A program made the translations under genes and the position numbers. Positions 59,044 through 64,000 of a stretch of DNA of 64,000 nt are shown here, in pieces. The DNA lies in assembly GCF_000832015.1 (NCBI RefSeq), contig NZ_JXCJ01000001.1:3453988-3517987 (forward strand), written 5' to 3'. Under the pieces are notes generated by a model. It did not search any database. It was not told where the DNA came from and worked only from the letters and a program-made list of their open reading frames with translations. This stretch comes from Gilvimarinus agarilyticus (lineage in GTDB: Bacteria > Pseudomonadota > Gammaproteobacteria > Pseudomonadales > Cellvibrionaceae). How positions within the stretch are numbered: the first letter of the stretch is position 1; every line of letters starts with the position of its first letter.

Positions 59044-59559
59044 CTAATTTTTATAATCACTCAACAGAGCTTCACCACGAGATATACAGAAATCCCACAC
59101 TTCTGCCTGGACCGAGTCGGGAAATTCGTCACCAAAGCTCAAGCCCTTGTAATCGGCTTTATAGTTAAGCGCTGTCAAGGTCGTATGCCGACGCACGGTA
59201 TCAGAAAATTCGTTTTTAACATCATCAGGAATATCACTTCCCGAAACCGCCCCATCTAAATACTCACTATCGTTATAGAGCTTGAATTCCGCTTTATCTC
59301 CATTGGGATCGATGCTAACTATATTGTCATCCGATTTAAGATCCCCGACATTCAGGCTTTGAACCTTAATCAGGTTATCCATCGCGGCGGACAGGTACTT
59401 TGCGTAGCTGGCCTCATCGGAGCACGAGGACTCTAAACTGCCCTTTTCGTAGCGAAAGCCTCCCTTATCTGCACTAAACGAATTCTTCCACGGGTTTTCG
59501 CTCGCCATGGCAGCACCCGCCGAACAGGCCACTAACCACGAAATGACAACTCTTTTCAT
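59044..59559 (-). CDS. Small exported protein, paralogue of 53513-54052
   Basis: A 171-residue protein with a signal peptide (ending in MAS, about residue 20). Cys residues occur in SSCSDEAS and WDFCIS. The C-terminal motif VQAEVWDFCIS matches VQQEMWDYCMS of the Tad-operon protein, as do a preceding Tyr/Lys-rich helix and similar length, suggesting duplication. Function unknown; it marks the likely right edge of the AT-rich locus. Confidence 0.72.
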   Translation of the reverse strand: MKRVVISWLVACSAGAAMASENPWKNSFSADKGGFRYEKGSLESSCSDEASYAKYLSAAMDNLIKVQSLNVGDLKSDDNIVSIDPNGDKAEFKLYNDSEYLDGAVSGSDIPDDVKNEFSDTVRRHTTLTALNYKADYKGLSFGDEFPDSVQAEVWDFCISRGEALLSDYKN

Positions 59560-60160
59560 AGACTTCCCTCCAGATAAAAATTCGATCGAGCCAGTCGCCG
59601 CTCTACGATATGATGCTGACCACGGTAAGGCGTTCTCCCTCTGTGTGTAACAGCCAATCTATACAGCCCCATCTAGAGACGGACCAATATAGGTTCACAG
59701 CAACCTGCTACATCAGGGCGAGAACCGTTAAAGACGAGGCCAAACGAGCTGGCTTAGCATGTGAAACAACATATCTTACAAGCATCCCTTTTTATTCGAT
59801 GCTTTCATTCTTAAAAGTGGCCAAGGCTCACCGGAGAACGATTATCAACGGCTTACAGCATATCGCGCCAGCCTTGACGCTTTACACTTCTCCAACATGA
59901 GATAAATATCACACAATTTTCAGGTAAGCGAAGAGCAGCGATCGCGTTGCTTACTGGAATATTACCCTGGCTAAAGTGGCATCCCAGCTCCCGTTTAACA
60001 CCTTGTGACATTTTCGTGACAAGAACTGGCAGAGCTTTCAATCGACCCATGGGCACCGTACTATAGCGCTCTGCTTTATTGATTTTAGGCTTCAACCCGC
60101 CACCAGCAGGCTCCACGGGCACCCAGGCCTAAGCAAAACATTACCCACCGGGAGCCCGGC
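59560..60160. other. Intergenic region upstream of the kinase/ATP-grasp cassette
   Basis: This 601-base region should hold promoters for the small exported protein and for the four-gene cassette. An inverted repeat CTTGT / ACAAG (60002-60023) encloses GTGACA-like direct repeats. The open frames here have no good ribosome site or recognisable product, so I call none. Confidence 0.45.
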
Positions 60161-61792
60161 ATGGTTCTAACCCCAGCCATCACCGACAGCCTTTACTTTC
60201 TGATCAGTGAAGTGAAAACTCACATCGGCCACCTACAAAGCTTTTTCTCACACGGCACTGTAGCTCACGCCCACCGCCTATTGGAGCGCAGTGGTCACGC
60301 CTATAATTTAAACTTGCGGGTACAAAATGCCTGCATGAAGCATATTGCGCTCCAGAGCAACCAGCACTCAATGAGTTACCGTGCAATTAGCCGAATTGCC
60401 AGTGAGCTGGAGCGAATTGCCGAACTATCGCGTGAGTGCCTACAGCAAATGAACTTTTTACACAGTGGTGCTCGGCTGGATTTGACTGTTTTTTTACCAC
60501 TGTTAGACAAGGTCGATAAGAGCATTGATTTGATATCCCGCGCCCTTAAAGACCGTGACACACAACTGGCACTAAAGCTTGGTAGAACCGAGCGTAAACT
60601 CGAGAAGTCCTATAAAAAGTTGGTAGGTCATTACACTCTTCAGCTTAAGAAAAAGAAGCACACAGAAGATCTCGTTAGCGGCCTGTTTATAGCCCACGCC
60701 ATCGAACAAATGGGCGATGCCTTGTTAAATATCAGCGATTCGATTATCTCCGGTCACATGGGGCAACCACTCGATTTGCAACGCTACAACTCGCTGCGCA
60801 ACACTATTAACAGCTGGCTTGACGAAGGTATGGCCGCACAGCTACAGGTGACGCCATTAGCCGAGACCCGCTCGGGCAGTGGCATCAGTGCGATTGACAA
60901 CCCGAGCGACGAGCAGTGGCAACGCCTAGTCTACAAAGACGGCACTAAGCGAAAGTTGAAAGAAGAGCTAGAAGGCGTCAATCGCTGGCACGACATATAC
61001 CCGGGCGTGGCGCCTCATATACATACCTTCCAAAAAGAGGGAGACAACGCCGCGCTGTTGATTGAGCACCTAAACGGCGAAACCTTTGAGCAGCTGGTAA
61101 TTAACTCGCCGCAAAAGCACCGCAAAAAAGCCATGACATGCCTTAAAAAAACACTCAATAGCATCTGGCAGGAAACCTACACCAAAGAGCCTCACCCGGC
61201 CCACTTTATGGCGCAAACCCTTAAGCGCTTACCCGATGTCTACAACGTTCATCCGGATTTTAAGCACGAGCGCCAACGCGTGGGTGGGCATAGTATCGAA
61301 AGCTTTGATGCTCTGGTTAAAAAAGCGGCTAAAAAAGAGCAGCGCTTAGCCCCACCTTTTAGTGTGTTTATTCATGGCGATTTTAATGTCGACAACATTA
61401 TCTACGATTCCGACCTCGGTAAGATCAATTTTATTGACCTGCACCGCTCCTGTTATATGGACTATGTACAAGACGCGTCAGTATTTATGGTCTCCAACTA
61501 CCGTTTGCAAATGCTAGAAGAGCCCGTTCGACGGCGTATACGTGAGCAAGTGTGCTGGTTTTATAACATTGTTCGCGCCTTTGCCGAAAAACACGATGAC
61601 AAAACCTTTGAGATCAGATTAGCCTTAGGTCTGGCGCGCTCGTTTGTCACCTCGACACGATTTATTCTGGATCACACCATGGCCATGCGGATGTACCTAA
61701 AAGCCCGCTATTTACTGGAGCAAATAAACCAGCTGCCTAGCCATAAAATACGCGACTATCGCGTACCTCTCAAGGAGCTTTTTAGTGAGTAA
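60161..61792 (+). CDS. PhoU-like domain fused to an APH-type kinase
   Basis: A 543-residue cytoplasmic fusion. Residues about 1-225 are all-helical with the PhoU-like repeat pattern (SRIASELERIAELSRECLQQM and FIAHAIEQMGDALLNISDSI, each a 'hExxxRIGDxaxNI'-like helix). Residues about 250-530 are an aminoglycoside phosphotransferase/choline-kinase-type domain with the Brenner motif FIHGDFNVDNIIYD (near residue 403), then metal-binding INFIDLHRS and a Lys/Glu-rich nucleotide lobe. GGGAG lies 6 bases before ATG. It overlaps the ATP-grasp gene by 8 bases. The small-molecule or protein substrate is unknown. Confidence 0.85.
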   Translation: MVLTPAITDSLYFLISEVKTHIGHLQSFFSHGTVAHAHRLLERSGHAYNLNLRVQNACMKHIALQSNQHSMSYRAISRIASELERIAELSRECLQQMNFLHSGARLDLTVFLPLLDKVDKSIDLISRALKDRDTQLALKLGRTERKLEKSYKKLVGHYTLQLKKKKHTEDLVSGLFIAHAIEQMGDALLNISDSIISGHMGQPLDLQRYNSLRNTINSWLDEGMAAQLQVTPLAETRSGSGISAIDNPSDEQWQRLVYKDGTKRKLKEELEGVNRWHDIYPGVAPHIHTFQKEGDNAALLIEHLNGETFEQLVINSPQKHRKKAMTCLKKTLNSIWQETYTKEPHPAHFMAQTLKRLPDVYNVHPDFKHERQRVGGHSIESFDALVKKAAKKEQRLAPPFSVFIHGDFNVDNIIYDSDLGKINFIDLHRSCYMDYVQDASVFMVSNYRLQMLEEPVRRRIREQVCWFYNIVRAFAEKHDDKTFEIRLALGLARSFVTSTRFILDHTMAMRMYLKARYLLEQINQLPSHKIRDYRVPLKELFSE

Positions 61793-62678
61793 AACCGCCG
61801 ATGTAAAGATTGCCGTTGTCGGGCTACCCGGCAAGTGGTCCACCGAGACTCTCGCCGATGCTATTGAAGCACGCACCGGGTTTCGTATGGTGGTCGATAT
61901 GCAACAGGTTACTCTCAATCTTGCCCACGGCCAGCTGTGGTATGACGACACGAACCTGTGTCAGCTCGACGGCATTATCGTTAAAAAAATCAGCAGCGAG
62001 TACAGCCCCAACACCCTTGATCGACTCGAGTTACTGCGAGTTGCCGAGGCCGCGGGGGTTAAAGTATTCAGTAAGGCCGAGCACATCCTACGGCTTATCG
62101 ACCGCCTTAGCTGTACCGTGACGCTGCGCAATCACGATATCCCTATGCCGGCGACAATCATCACCGAATGCCCCGAGCAAGCCTTGAAAGCGGTGGAGAC
62201 CTTTGGAGAGGCGGTGTTCAAACCCCTATACTCGACCAAAGCCCGGGGCATGGAACTTATTACCCACGCCCAGCCCGACAAACAAACCGCCATCGCTCGC
62301 TTTGCCGCGCAACACCCTATGATGTACATTCAACAAAAGCTTAATTTAAGCGGGCGGGATTTGGGGATGGTATTTCTCGGCGGCCAGTACCTTGGCAGCT
62401 ACGCCCGACAAGGCGCTGGCAATAGCTGGAACACCACCATACACAGCGGCGGAAAATACACCAAAGCCGAGCCCGAACAAACCCTCATCGATTTAGCTAA
62501 ACGTGCCCAAGCGCCCTTTGCCATGGATTTCACCACCGTCGACGTTGCCGAGACCGACAGCGGCCCAATAGTTTTTGAAGTGTCGGCATTTGGTGGCTTT
62601 CGCGGCGCCCTCGACGGCATCGGCATAAACGCCGCCGCCCTCTACACCGATTACGTGATAGGAAAGATCAATGGCTGA
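61785..62678 (+). CDS. RimK-like ATP-grasp enzyme of a GAK-type cassette
   Basis: A 297-residue ATP-grasp enzyme, which would join an amine or thiol to an acyl-phosphate intermediate with ATP. Start is GTG, overlapping the kinase stop by 8 bases. The N-terminal pre-ATP-grasp segment (IAVVGLPGKWSTETLADAIEAR) is followed by RLIDRLSCTVTLRNHDIPMPATI, the central lysine strand GEAVFKPLYSTKARGMELI and the C-terminal metal site IVFEVSAFGGFRG, where the usual Asn of the E-x-N motif is Ser. It resembles enzymes labelled 'GAK system ATP-grasp' in family collections, from memory. Substrate unknown. Confidence 0.83.
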   Translation: MSKTADVKIAVVGLPGKWSTETLADAIEARTGFRMVVDMQQVTLNLAHGQLWYDDTNLCQLDGIIVKKISSEYSPNTLDRLELLRVAEAAGVKVFSKAEHILRLIDRLSCTVTLRNHDIPMPATIITECPEQALKAVETFGEAVFKPLYSTKARGMELITHAQPDKQTAIARFAAQHPMMYIQQKLNLSGRDLGMVFLGGQYLGSYARQGAGNSWNTTIHSGGKYTKAEPEQTLIDLAKRAQAPFAMDFTTVDVAETDSGPIVFEVSAFGGFRGALDGIGINAAALYTDYVIGKING

Positions 62679-63807
62679 AGCCAAGCACCAACCCGACACA
62701 GCAGCACACGATACCGTCGGCTGGCTAGAACAAATCGCCGCTACCGCCCGGCACGGCCTAACACTGGCATTACCTGGCGCCACTATCGCGATTGAGTGCT
62801 CCCAGATCAGTACCGCCAACGCGTTAAGCGAGTACTTTTCGCCCTGGATCTGCGTCCGCCCGGACGACATCGATATTACCGTTAGCGTTATAGAGCACGA
62901 TGCCATTGGCGAACACCTACCTTGGCAAGACTGGACTCGGGAGCCCGGAAAAAGCGGGCGAAAAGACACCTATATTGATGTAGCCGATGCCCGTTTGATT
63001 CGTAAATACCGCACCGGTATGGTGTTTTTACAAAGCCGTGCGCAGTGCATTGCTATAGGTCCCTGCAACGCCAATCTCAATCAGATTGTGAACTTTATAA
63101 ACAACCAGGCCATGAACGCTCTGCAACAAAGCGGGTGGCTTATCGGTCATGCCGCCGCTGCCTGCTATCAACAGCAAGCAATTGCCATTGCCGGCTTTTC
63201 CGGCGGTGGTAAATCCACGAGTATGCTACGGTTGCTCGAGCACCCCGAGGTCAACTTTATCTCCAACGACCGGGTGTTTATCAAGGATCAAAACGGCCAG
63301 CTCATGCTTAGTGGCGTGGCTAAAATGCCGCGGGTTAATCCCGGCACACTACTTAACAACGCCCGCCTACTGCCTTTGCTCAGTGCGAGCCAACGCCAAC
63401 ATTACTTAACCCTGGCTCCCGACGCACTCTGGGAGCTGGAAGAAAAGTACGACGTTATGATTCCGCCCCTGTACGGCAACGACAAGAATAACCGAATTGA
63501 CAATAGCGCGCGGCTAAGCGCCGTTATGTTGCTTAACTGGGATCGCCACAGCGAAAGCAAAACCAGCCTCGAGCAGGTCGATATCACTCAGCGGCAAGAT
63601 TTACTGCCTGCCCTCATGAAAACCTCGGGGCCTTTTTATCAGGACAAAAACGGTCAGTTCCAACCTGATACGCAACCACCGCAGCCACCAGCCTACAATC
63701 GATTACTAAGCAAAACACGGGTATTTGAAGTGAGCGGTGGTGTGGACTTCAACGCGCTGCAAGATTTTTGCTGGAAACTGTGGGCGCTGCCCGAGGCACA
63801 CAACTGA
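62671..63807 (+). CDS. HprK-related kinase (GAK-type kinase B-like)
   Basis: A 378-residue protein whose middle holds a P-loop AGFSGGGKSTSML (near residues 174-186) followed by FISNDRVFI, the pattern of HPr kinase and the related small P-loop kinases. There is no HPr-type N-terminal domain, and the ~170 N-terminal residues (with two beta/alpha units such as VTVSVIEHDAIGE) are of unknown kind. It overlaps the ATP-grasp gene by 8 bases and shares one base with the next start codon. It probably phosphorylates a Ser/Thr or small-molecule target made or carried by the cassette. The real target is unknown. Confidence 0.83.
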   Translation: MAEAKHQPDTAAHDTVGWLEQIAATARHGLTLALPGATIAIECSQISTANALSEYFSPWICVRPDDIDITVSVIEHDAIGEHLPWQDWTREPGKSGRKDTYIDVADARLIRKYRTGMVFLQSRAQCIAIGPCNANLNQIVNFINNQAMNALQQSGWLIGHAAAACYQQQAIAIAGFSGGGKSTSMLRLLEHPEVNFISNDRVFIKDQNGQLMLSGVAKMPRVNPGTLLNNARLLPLLSASQRQHYLTLAPDALWELEEKYDVMIPPLYGNDKNNRIDNSARLSAVMLLNWDRHSESKTSLEQVDITQRQDLLPALMKTSGPFYQDKNGQFQPDTQPPQPPAYNRLLSKTRVFEVSGGVDFNALQDFCWKLWALPEAHN

Positions 63808-64000
63808 TGCGTGCTTTTGCCCTAATTCGCCACGGCGACTACCAACAAAAACCTGACACGCCGAGCGCGCATCAGCCCTACCCCCTTACCGAGAACGGCG
63901 AGCAGCAAGCTCGCCACTGCGCGGCACAGCTTGTAAGTTTTGCGGCCGAGCTCGGCTTAGCTCTGGCACCGACCACACACAGCTCGAGCTTACAACGGGC
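63807..64000 (+). CDS. Histidine-phosphatase-superfamily protein (partial, runs off the end)
   Basis: The ATG shares one base with the previous stop (TGATG), so the gene is translationally coupled. The visible 64 residues start MRAFALIRHGDYQ, with the catalytic RHG motif of the histidine phosphatase (phosphoglycerate mutase-like) superfamily, then YPLTENGEQQARHCAAQL and SSLQRA, the usual second motif region. It could reverse a phosphorylation made by one of the two upstream kinases, which would complete a kinase/phosphatase pair. The C-terminal half, including the second catalytic His, is outside the window. Confidence 0.82.
   Translation, partial: MRAFALIRHGDYQQKPDTPSAHQPYPLTENGEQQARHCAAQLVSFAAELGLALAPTTHSSSLQR

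Follow-up and report, generated by a model that had tools for sequence, protein, structure and literature searches.

At the right end of a 64,000-nucleotide stretch of the Gilvimarinus agarilyticus genome (contig NZ_JXCJ01000001.1, positions 3,453,988 to 3,517,987; hereafter the window) begins a complete GAK cassette of six genes without a CofD-like gene. The name GAK is that of a system, defined in silico, to which the NCBIfam families TIGR04354 to TIGR04358 belong. The fourth gene crosses the window edge at 64000, and what follows was read from the continuation of the same genome (locus L002, where an L002 coordinate plus 54000 gives the window coordinate). The cassette and two elements upstream of it are laid out as follows.

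60005..60022, minus strand: Pho-box-like direct repeat, TGACA twice, 11 bp apart, reading TTGTCACGAAAATGTCAC on the minus strand
60036..60064, plus strand: putative promoter, TTTCAA, 17 bp, TACTAT
60161..61792, plus strand: PhoU-APH fusion gene, 543 amino acids, with an N-terminal PhoU helical bundle and a C-terminal aminoglycoside-phosphotransferase-like kinase
61785..62678, plus strand: GAK ATP-grasp gene, RimK/LysX-like, 297 amino acids, GTG start
62671..63807, plus strand: HprK-related kinase B (HprK-B) gene, PEPCK/HprK fold, 378 amino acids
63807..64502 (window-equivalent; window edge 64000), plus strand: histidine phosphatase gene, 231 amino acids from ATG
64499-65836 (window-equivalent; L002:10499-11836), plus strand: metallophosphatase gene, 445 amino acids, TTG start
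65842-66129 (window-equivalent; L002:11842-12129), plus strand: amphi-Trp gene, 95 amino acids

All six reading frames are open and co-oriented, and opposite-strand genes begin after the amphi-Trp gene. An earlier note, made from the letters of the window alone, had described genes one to four as overlapping by 8, 8 and 1 bases; the open reading frame coordinates confirm this, the fourth-gene ATG at 63807 starting on the final base of the third-gene stop. The note had also expected the cassette to continue past 64000, where the metallophosphatase gene indeed overlaps the histidine phosphatase gene by 4 bases and the amphi-Trp gene starts 5 bases after the metallophosphatase gene. The domain names it gave to the four genes (PhoU-APH, ATP-grasp, HprK-like and histidine phosphatase) all correspond to Pfam or NCBIfam models over cut-off, and the resemblance to the GAK system that it had suggested holds, with TIGR04356 and TIGR04355 well over cut-off and TIGR04354 (amphi-Trp) found downstream. 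The putative promoter was recognized by eye in an upstream alignment of three genomes, and similar blocks are present in both other GAK-carrying genomes of the genus.

For comparison, 94 loci including that of the window were gathered (80 named-genome, 12 phylum-sample and 3 family-sample loci plus the window, minus duplicates; L061 and L119, copies of L047 and L056, were dropped before counting) and scored with profiles built from the same locus set. Because the named-genome loci are the best 80 of at least 493 by similarity to the window locus, counts over the 58 loci that have at least 5 kb of left and 7.5 kb of right flank lean to near relatives, which the phylum sample does not. The genes for PhoU-APH, ATP-grasp, HprK-B and amphi-Trp are each present in 58/58 of these loci, the metallophosphatase gene in 54/58 and the histidine phosphatase gene in 52/58, with all six genes together in 52/58. 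Given the loci that lack both phosphatases (L070, L080, L091, and L092) and those in which the loss is partial (L048 and L049, without histidine phosphatase), the set of PhoU-APH, ATP-grasp, HprK-B and amphi-Trp looks like the core of the GAK unit. Of the 89 loci that have the PhoU-APH and ATP-grasp genes in order, 88 keep the two at most 20 bp apart, with a median gap of -8 (junction gaps use longest-frame starts, which biases them towards overlap), and the overlap is thus not a matter of chance. Divergence is correlated for all 15 gene pairs (Spearman 0.46-0.76), as any co-inherited genes would show. Accessory families, one representative of each of which was scanned, recur less regularly over the 58 loci: a SixA-NUDIX fusion in 36, an upstream NUDIX gene in 34, a CofD-like gene in 27, a CHAD gene in 9, and a sodium/phosphate (Na/Pi) cotransporter gene in 7. 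Rearranged cassettes were seen in L105, L112, and L123, where the HprK-B gene stands after the phosphatase genes, as does the PhoU-APH gene in L123.

In the phylum sample the association also holds. The ATP-grasp gene was found in 13 of 398 phylum-sampled genomes (at E 1e-60 or below; 12 of these exceed the cut-off), and HprK-B in 13/13 genomes with ATP-grasp and 2/385 without it, both at contig ends (Fisher-tested; two short HprK-B matches of 45 bits in further genomes were left uncounted). Amphi-Trp was found in 11/13 genomes with ATP-grasp and 9/385 without, one of the nine with HprK-B (Fisher-tested). The earlier note had named lack of conserved co-occurrence across genomes as what would speak against it; both the 58-locus and the phylum counts reveal such co-occurrence. 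Neither ATP-grasp nor HprK-B was detected in 14 well-known control genomes at the limits used, and one of these, Haloferax volcanii, has amphi-Trp. ATP-grasp is over cut-off in 4/100 genomes of the family of the window and 3/8 of the genus, a patchy distribution. Within the genus no empty insertion site was seen, two flanking genes each having a match in just 1/7 relatives. Among 72,556 plasmid records, five from Rhodobacterales carry ATP-grasp, and the same five have PhoU-APH beside it. The three plasmids examined come from as many Rhodobacterales species, two of them marine and the third found in saline soil, and contain the same six genes in order between flanking genes that differ; a CofD-like gene is found on two of the three, one of which has a NUDIX gene as well. 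Two planctomycete ATP-grasps are 69-72% identical to the nearest alphaproteobacterial copies, which fits transfer. The ATP-grasp of L063, a metagenome-assembled genome labeled "Halobacteria archaeon," shares 80% identity with its counterpart on an Ectothiorhodospiraceae contig, and L063 is probably, judging from this likeness, a misbinned bacterial contig and not an archaeal GAK system.

The two halves of the PhoU-APH protein both exceed their Pfam cut-offs (PhoU PF01895, 51.9 bits against 23.5; APH PF01636, 36.8 bits against 23.2), and in a solved-structure profile search the first part matches PhoU (E 1.1e-10) and the second APH(3') kinases (E 4.9e-5). The kinase motif HGDFN-x-DN and D426 are kept in 88/90 aligned rows, the remaining 2 rows being gaps.

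By its profile matches, the ATP-grasp protein is RimK-like. It scores 452.2 bits with TIGR04356 (grasp_GAK; cut-off, 300) and 47.1 bits with the Pfam RimK domain (over the cut-off of 21), falls below the RimK-family model TIGR00768 (100.8 bits; cut-off, 143.4), and matches solved structures that include RimK and LysX, with a best E of 1.6e-18. D253 and E265 are invariant (94/94). Where RimK and LysX have Asn in the alignment, position 267 is Ser in 94/94; we take this Asn to be the last metal-site ligand of those enzymes.

HprK-B, encoded directly after ATP-grasp, scores 322.9 bits with TIGR04355 (HprK_rel_B; cut-off, 200), and its structure was predicted with high confidence (pLDDT 93.4). Residues 8-377 of the model, its whole length, align with PEP carboxykinase (Z 16.2; rmsd 4.5; 308 aligned), and only the C-terminal residues 155-378 align with HprK (Z 14.6; rmsd 2.7; 137 aligned). 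The predicted structure thus places HprK-B in the PEPCK/HprK P-loop fold, which does not imply that HPr is phosphorylated. The "HprK-like" of the earlier note stands at the level of the fold and suits the catalytic half; the chain as a whole resembles PEPCK in its layout. Identity with HprK by sequence was tried among solved structures and rejected: ABC-transporter P-loops score highest, and HprK is not among the 38 matches at E 1. H160, G178, G180, K181, S182, and N199-D200-R201 are present in 87/87 sequences and S177 in 86/87; we assume H160, K181, S182, and D200 to be the counterparts of HprK active-site residues.

The sixth gene encodes amphi-Trp (TIGR04354, 60.3 bits; cut-off, 31). GAK-type amphi-Trp proteins are mostly basic (median isoelectric point, 9.2; range, 5.1-10.7) and conserved throughout, with a mean column identity of 37% and 14 columns at 90% or more in 54 sequences. 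(Alignments passed to other tools contained 54 of 72 amphi-Trp rows found, 38 of 88 for HprK-B, 38 of 91 for PhoU-APH, and 22 of 77 for the metallophosphatase.) Over all 72 proteins, F8 is found in 72, H10 in 71, S12 in 70, Q14 in 68, G33 in 72, and W73 in 70, which gives the common motif FxHxSLQ. FxHxS is missing in 8/8 amphi-Trp proteins taken one each from genomes in which, at the limits used, neither ATP-grasp nor HprK-B was found, a comparison that leaves out a ninth, weak non-GAK match (G180, 21.6 bits, under cut-off), and it is present in L174, where the contig holds just the end of HprK-B. On this pattern of conservation, FxHxSLQ would be the obvious candidate for a modification motif of GAK-type amphi-Trp. 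The best of five predicted structures has a pLDDT of 83.6 and a confident core, the others ranging down to 60.2; no known fold was found (Foldseek best E, 1.8; VIA best Z, 2.2), from which newness of the fold does not follow. A short amphi-Trp subfamily with an RDIEK- or RDVDK-like start followed by KLRRLAD stands alone in genomes without GAK (L166-L168, L172, and L173), and a second non-GAK type is found in L169-L171; in these eight neighborhoods, inspected by eye, no common partner gene was seen.

Two phosphatases complete the cassette. The histidine phosphatase scores 83.8 bits with His_Phos_1 (PF00300; cut-off, 21.7). The second belongs to the Metallophos family, has by eye the motifs GD-x2-DKG and GNHD, which we take to mark PPP enzymes, and in the solved-structure profile search weakly matches diadenosine tetraphosphatase (E 7.5e-4). 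In L048, from the window's own family (G078), the four core genes are present. The stretch of this locus about 2.0-3.5 kb past the ATP-grasp start has the look of a phosphatase half in decay: the metallophosphatase is a fragment of about 100 residues, the SixA-NUDIX match contains a stop codon, and no histidine phosphatase was found.

Just upstream of the cassette (window 59044-59559, minus strand) lies a gene for a 171-amino-acid protein with a signal-like N-terminus and nothing over cut-off in Pfam or NCBIfam. About 4.4 kb past it (L002:16565-19619), a putative extracytoplasmic function-sigma-like gene is followed by small YCII- and glyoxalase-like genes, recognized by eye.

Several features hint at a link of the cassette with phosphate, which the earlier note did not emphasize. 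The repeat at 60005..60022 agrees with the Pho-box consensus at 11/14 positions, and it is aligned in 3/3 GAK-carrying genomes of the genus. TGTCA-type repeats with 11-bp spacing that match at least 11/14 positions were found upstream of 15/84 loci and of 23/394 controls (Fisher P = 0.0012), a comparison that is not like for like and to that extent counts against phosphate control, as the controls include operon-internal genes. The 394 controls are real upstream regions from the same loci; shuffled sequences overstate the repeat (0.23 loci expected at 12/14 or more). The Na/Pi cotransporter neighbor that was scanned carries a PhoU domain of its own, and CHAD domains are reported to bind polyphosphate (PMC6537752). 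The ppk-CHAD-NUDIX operon of Streptomyces, reportedly Pho-controlled (PMC8003754), likewise gives the accessory genes a bearing on phosphate. The PhoU domain, the Pho-box-like repeats and the CHAD and Na/Pi neighbors are hints in the sequences that point to phosphate control of the GAK cassette. Set against them, the contrast is weaker at 12/14 or more (6/84 versus 7/394; P = 0.015), 69/84 loci are without a repeat even at 11, and sites occur in both orientations. CHAD (9/58) and Na/Pi (7/58) genes are, by raw count, neighbors in a minority of loci, not including this one. The E(D)xxxD metal motifs of PhoU are only partly kept, the Asp position of motif 1 being D in 5/90 and D186 of motif 2 in 52/90. 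The idea that GAK substitutes for polyphosphate kinase was rejected: ppk1 is present in 23/24 genomes (15/16 with GAK and 8/8 without), and in all 15 of those GAK genomes the gene is either on a different contig or separated from the cassette by over 140 kb.

The six packed genes, the near-constant set across unrelated genomes, the plasmid copies and the catalytic residues of both kinases, invariant in aligned relatives apart from gaps, suggest that the cassette works as one switch. Our leading, though tentative, explanation is a single phosphate-linked switch that would reversibly modify amphi-Trp or its ligand, the substrates of all its enzymes being proposals. A set of two kinases, a ligase and two phosphatases around one small conserved protein is easier to reconcile with a target that is modified and then reset than with synthesis in one direction, and the switchable phosphorylation by ligase, kinase and phosphatase that the earlier note proposed is likewise consistent with the gene content. 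In such a cycle, the PhoU domain would tie the APH-like kinase to phosphate supply, and the HprK/PEPCK-fold kinase and the RimK-like ATP-grasp would act on one target, the kinase adding phosphate and the ATP-grasp an amino acid, probably glutamate. Amphi-Trp, small and basic, would be that target, with FxHxSLQ as the likeliest site, or else a ligand bound by it; HprK homologues have been reported to phosphorylate a peptide serine, some of them repeatedly (PMC8498205). The histidine phosphatase and the metallophosphatase, whose motifs are of the PPP type, would strip phosphate or split diphosphates and so reset the target, a role that the SixA-NUDIX and NUDIX enzymes of other species may share, and the output of the switch would tune phosphate uptake or storage. 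Several observations weigh against such a switch. Both phosphatases are missing in 4/58 loci and are thus not essential everywhere; S12 could be a plain helix cap, as the predicted helix begins at residue 16; amphi-Trp proteins also occur without GAK; and the whole-length PEPCK-like match of HprK-B is compatible with a small-molecule kinase.

That last match favors the alternative which survives best, a small-molecule pathway that makes and recycles a cofactor-like compound bearing phosphate and glutamate, comparable to F420 or tetrahydromethanopterin tails, with amphi-Trp binding or carrying the compound. We regard this as possible but rather unlikely. After TIGR04356, the NCBIfam model that the ATP-grasp matches best is MptN, tetrahydromethanopterin:glutamate ligase (140.3 bits; cut-off, 350), and a CofD-like gene (TIGR04357; the one copy scanned scores 490 bits against a cut-off of 340) lies beside 27/58 loci, occurs away from the cassette in G240 and G256, and was found in 0/8 genomes without GAK. 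In G256 (C1 3340670-3360911) the unlinked copy is about 17 kb from ppk1. However, the CofD-like gene was found in only 4/16 GAK genomes, the two with unlinked copies among them, and not in the other 12, which include G. agarilyticus (nothing in its genome at E 1e-20); it is absent from the fetched flank in 31/58 loci and thus an optional part. Moreover, two to four phosphohydrolases beside two kinases resemble a reversible cycle and not a one-way synthesis. The earlier note had looked for a CofD-like or XXXCH-type gene further on, and neither was found downstream or elsewhere in the genome at the limits used. The XXXCH-domain protein (TIGR04358), which we take to be tied to the GAK system, matches nothing above cut-off in a set of 24 genomes that includes 16 GAK carriers, and is therefore not a general member of it.

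A soluble polyphosphorylated messenger, made and broken by ATP-grasp, kinase, histidine phosphatase and NUDIX enzymes and analogous, not related, to the eukaryotic inositol pyrophosphates, seems to us improbable. The part list recalls PPIP5K, in which a kinase is reported to be coupled with a phosphatase domain (PMC11836120), NUDIX hydrolases are described as acting on inositol pyrophosphates (PMC12678693), and the phosphate-linked neighbor genes would suit such a messenger. A small protein would not be needed, yet amphi-Trp is present in 58/58 loci. No SixA-NUDIX gene was found in the 8 genus genomes searched, that of G. agarilyticus included at the limits used, and no NUDIX match beside the three cassettes of the genus. 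The kinship of the ATP-grasp to inositol-pyrophosphate kinases that the part list suggested was unsupported by the solved-structure profile search, in which the 11 matches (E 0.01) are RimK, LysX and other ATP-grasps, none of them named inositol phosphate kinase.

More speculative still is a protein-borne phosphate relay or store, drawn by analogy, in which the HprK-fold kinase would load Ser12 (perhaps multiply, like some of the lasso-peptide HprK homologues) or His10 of amphi-Trp, the ATP-grasp would add amino acids, the phosphatases, SixA-NUDIX and NUDIX enzymes would unload the protein, and the PhoU-controlled kinase would govern the whole. If this reading were true, the cassette would be a bacterial phosphate-homeostasis system apart from Pst/PhoR and polyphosphate kinase.

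The "modified peptide" of the earlier note, in the form of a cluster for a secreted peptide like the ribosomally synthesized and post-translationally modified peptides, with amphi-Trp as precursor, is very unlikely. HprK-like kinases are reported to tailor lasso peptides (PMC8498205), and the ATP-grasp weakly matches two peptide-maturase models of NCBIfam. But no peptide precursor was seen, the small partner being amphi-Trp, a protein of about 91 residues that is conserved over its whole length and has a confidently predicted core in its best model; no peptidase was seen by eye among neighbor families present in at least 6 loci; and ABC-type ATPases, present in 18 loci, are scattered across both flanks. 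A loose neighborhood of ordinary enzymes without shared function, which the commonness of each fold on its own would allow, is scarcely credible given the near-constant set and order, the tight junctions, the plasmid copies, the co-occurrence and the correlated divergence of all gene pairs, though the last is general among co-inherited genes.

GAK is named in annotation pipelines; this analysis defines a six-gene unit with a four-gene core, and it supplies a candidate phospho-acceptor motif, a testable link with phosphate and a minimal natural copy, carried on a plasmid by the cultivable marine bacterium Tritonibacter mobilis F1926. If the phosphate-linked switch is real, it would be a further layer of bacterial phosphate control. 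No paper describing the GAK system or its function was found among 5.39 million openly available papers, a coverage outside of which lie most subscription journals and bioRxiv.

Among known systems, the Streptomyces ppk-CHAD-NUDIX operon is reported to be under Pho control, and the commonest genes after ppk are reportedly those for PPX/GppA, NUDIX/MutT and histidine phosphatase (PMC8003754). Around GAK, too, NUDIX and histidine phosphatase genes recur, joined in some loci by CHAD genes. In contrast to these operons, the GAK cassette is without a polyphosphate kinase, ppk1 lying elsewhere and being equally present in genomes that lack GAK. HprK-B shares with HPr kinase/phosphorylase and the lasso-peptide HprK homologues a P-loop kinase core, a His before the P-loop and an (N/D)D motif after it; it differs from them in its extra N-terminal part, which aligns with PEPCK, and its cassette is without HPr. 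The GAK ATP-grasp has the fold of RimK, LysX, and MptN, a near-full-length profile match to RimK and the invariant D253 and E265, whereas the E-x-N of that family is E-x-S in 94/94 GAK sequences and the protein scores too low to pass the curated RimK-family, LysX, and MptN models. The GAK system of TIGR04354 to TIGR04358 is itself the closest likeness: ATP-grasp, HprK-B and amphi-Trp are over curated cut-offs and here form one operon, in a genome that differs in having no detected CofD-like or XXXCH gene. In the three plasmid records examined, the only label of PhoU-APH is "phosphotransferase" or "aminoglycoside phosphotransferase family protein." Like the two phosphatases, it is not named there as a GAK part, although it is as constant as the members that are.

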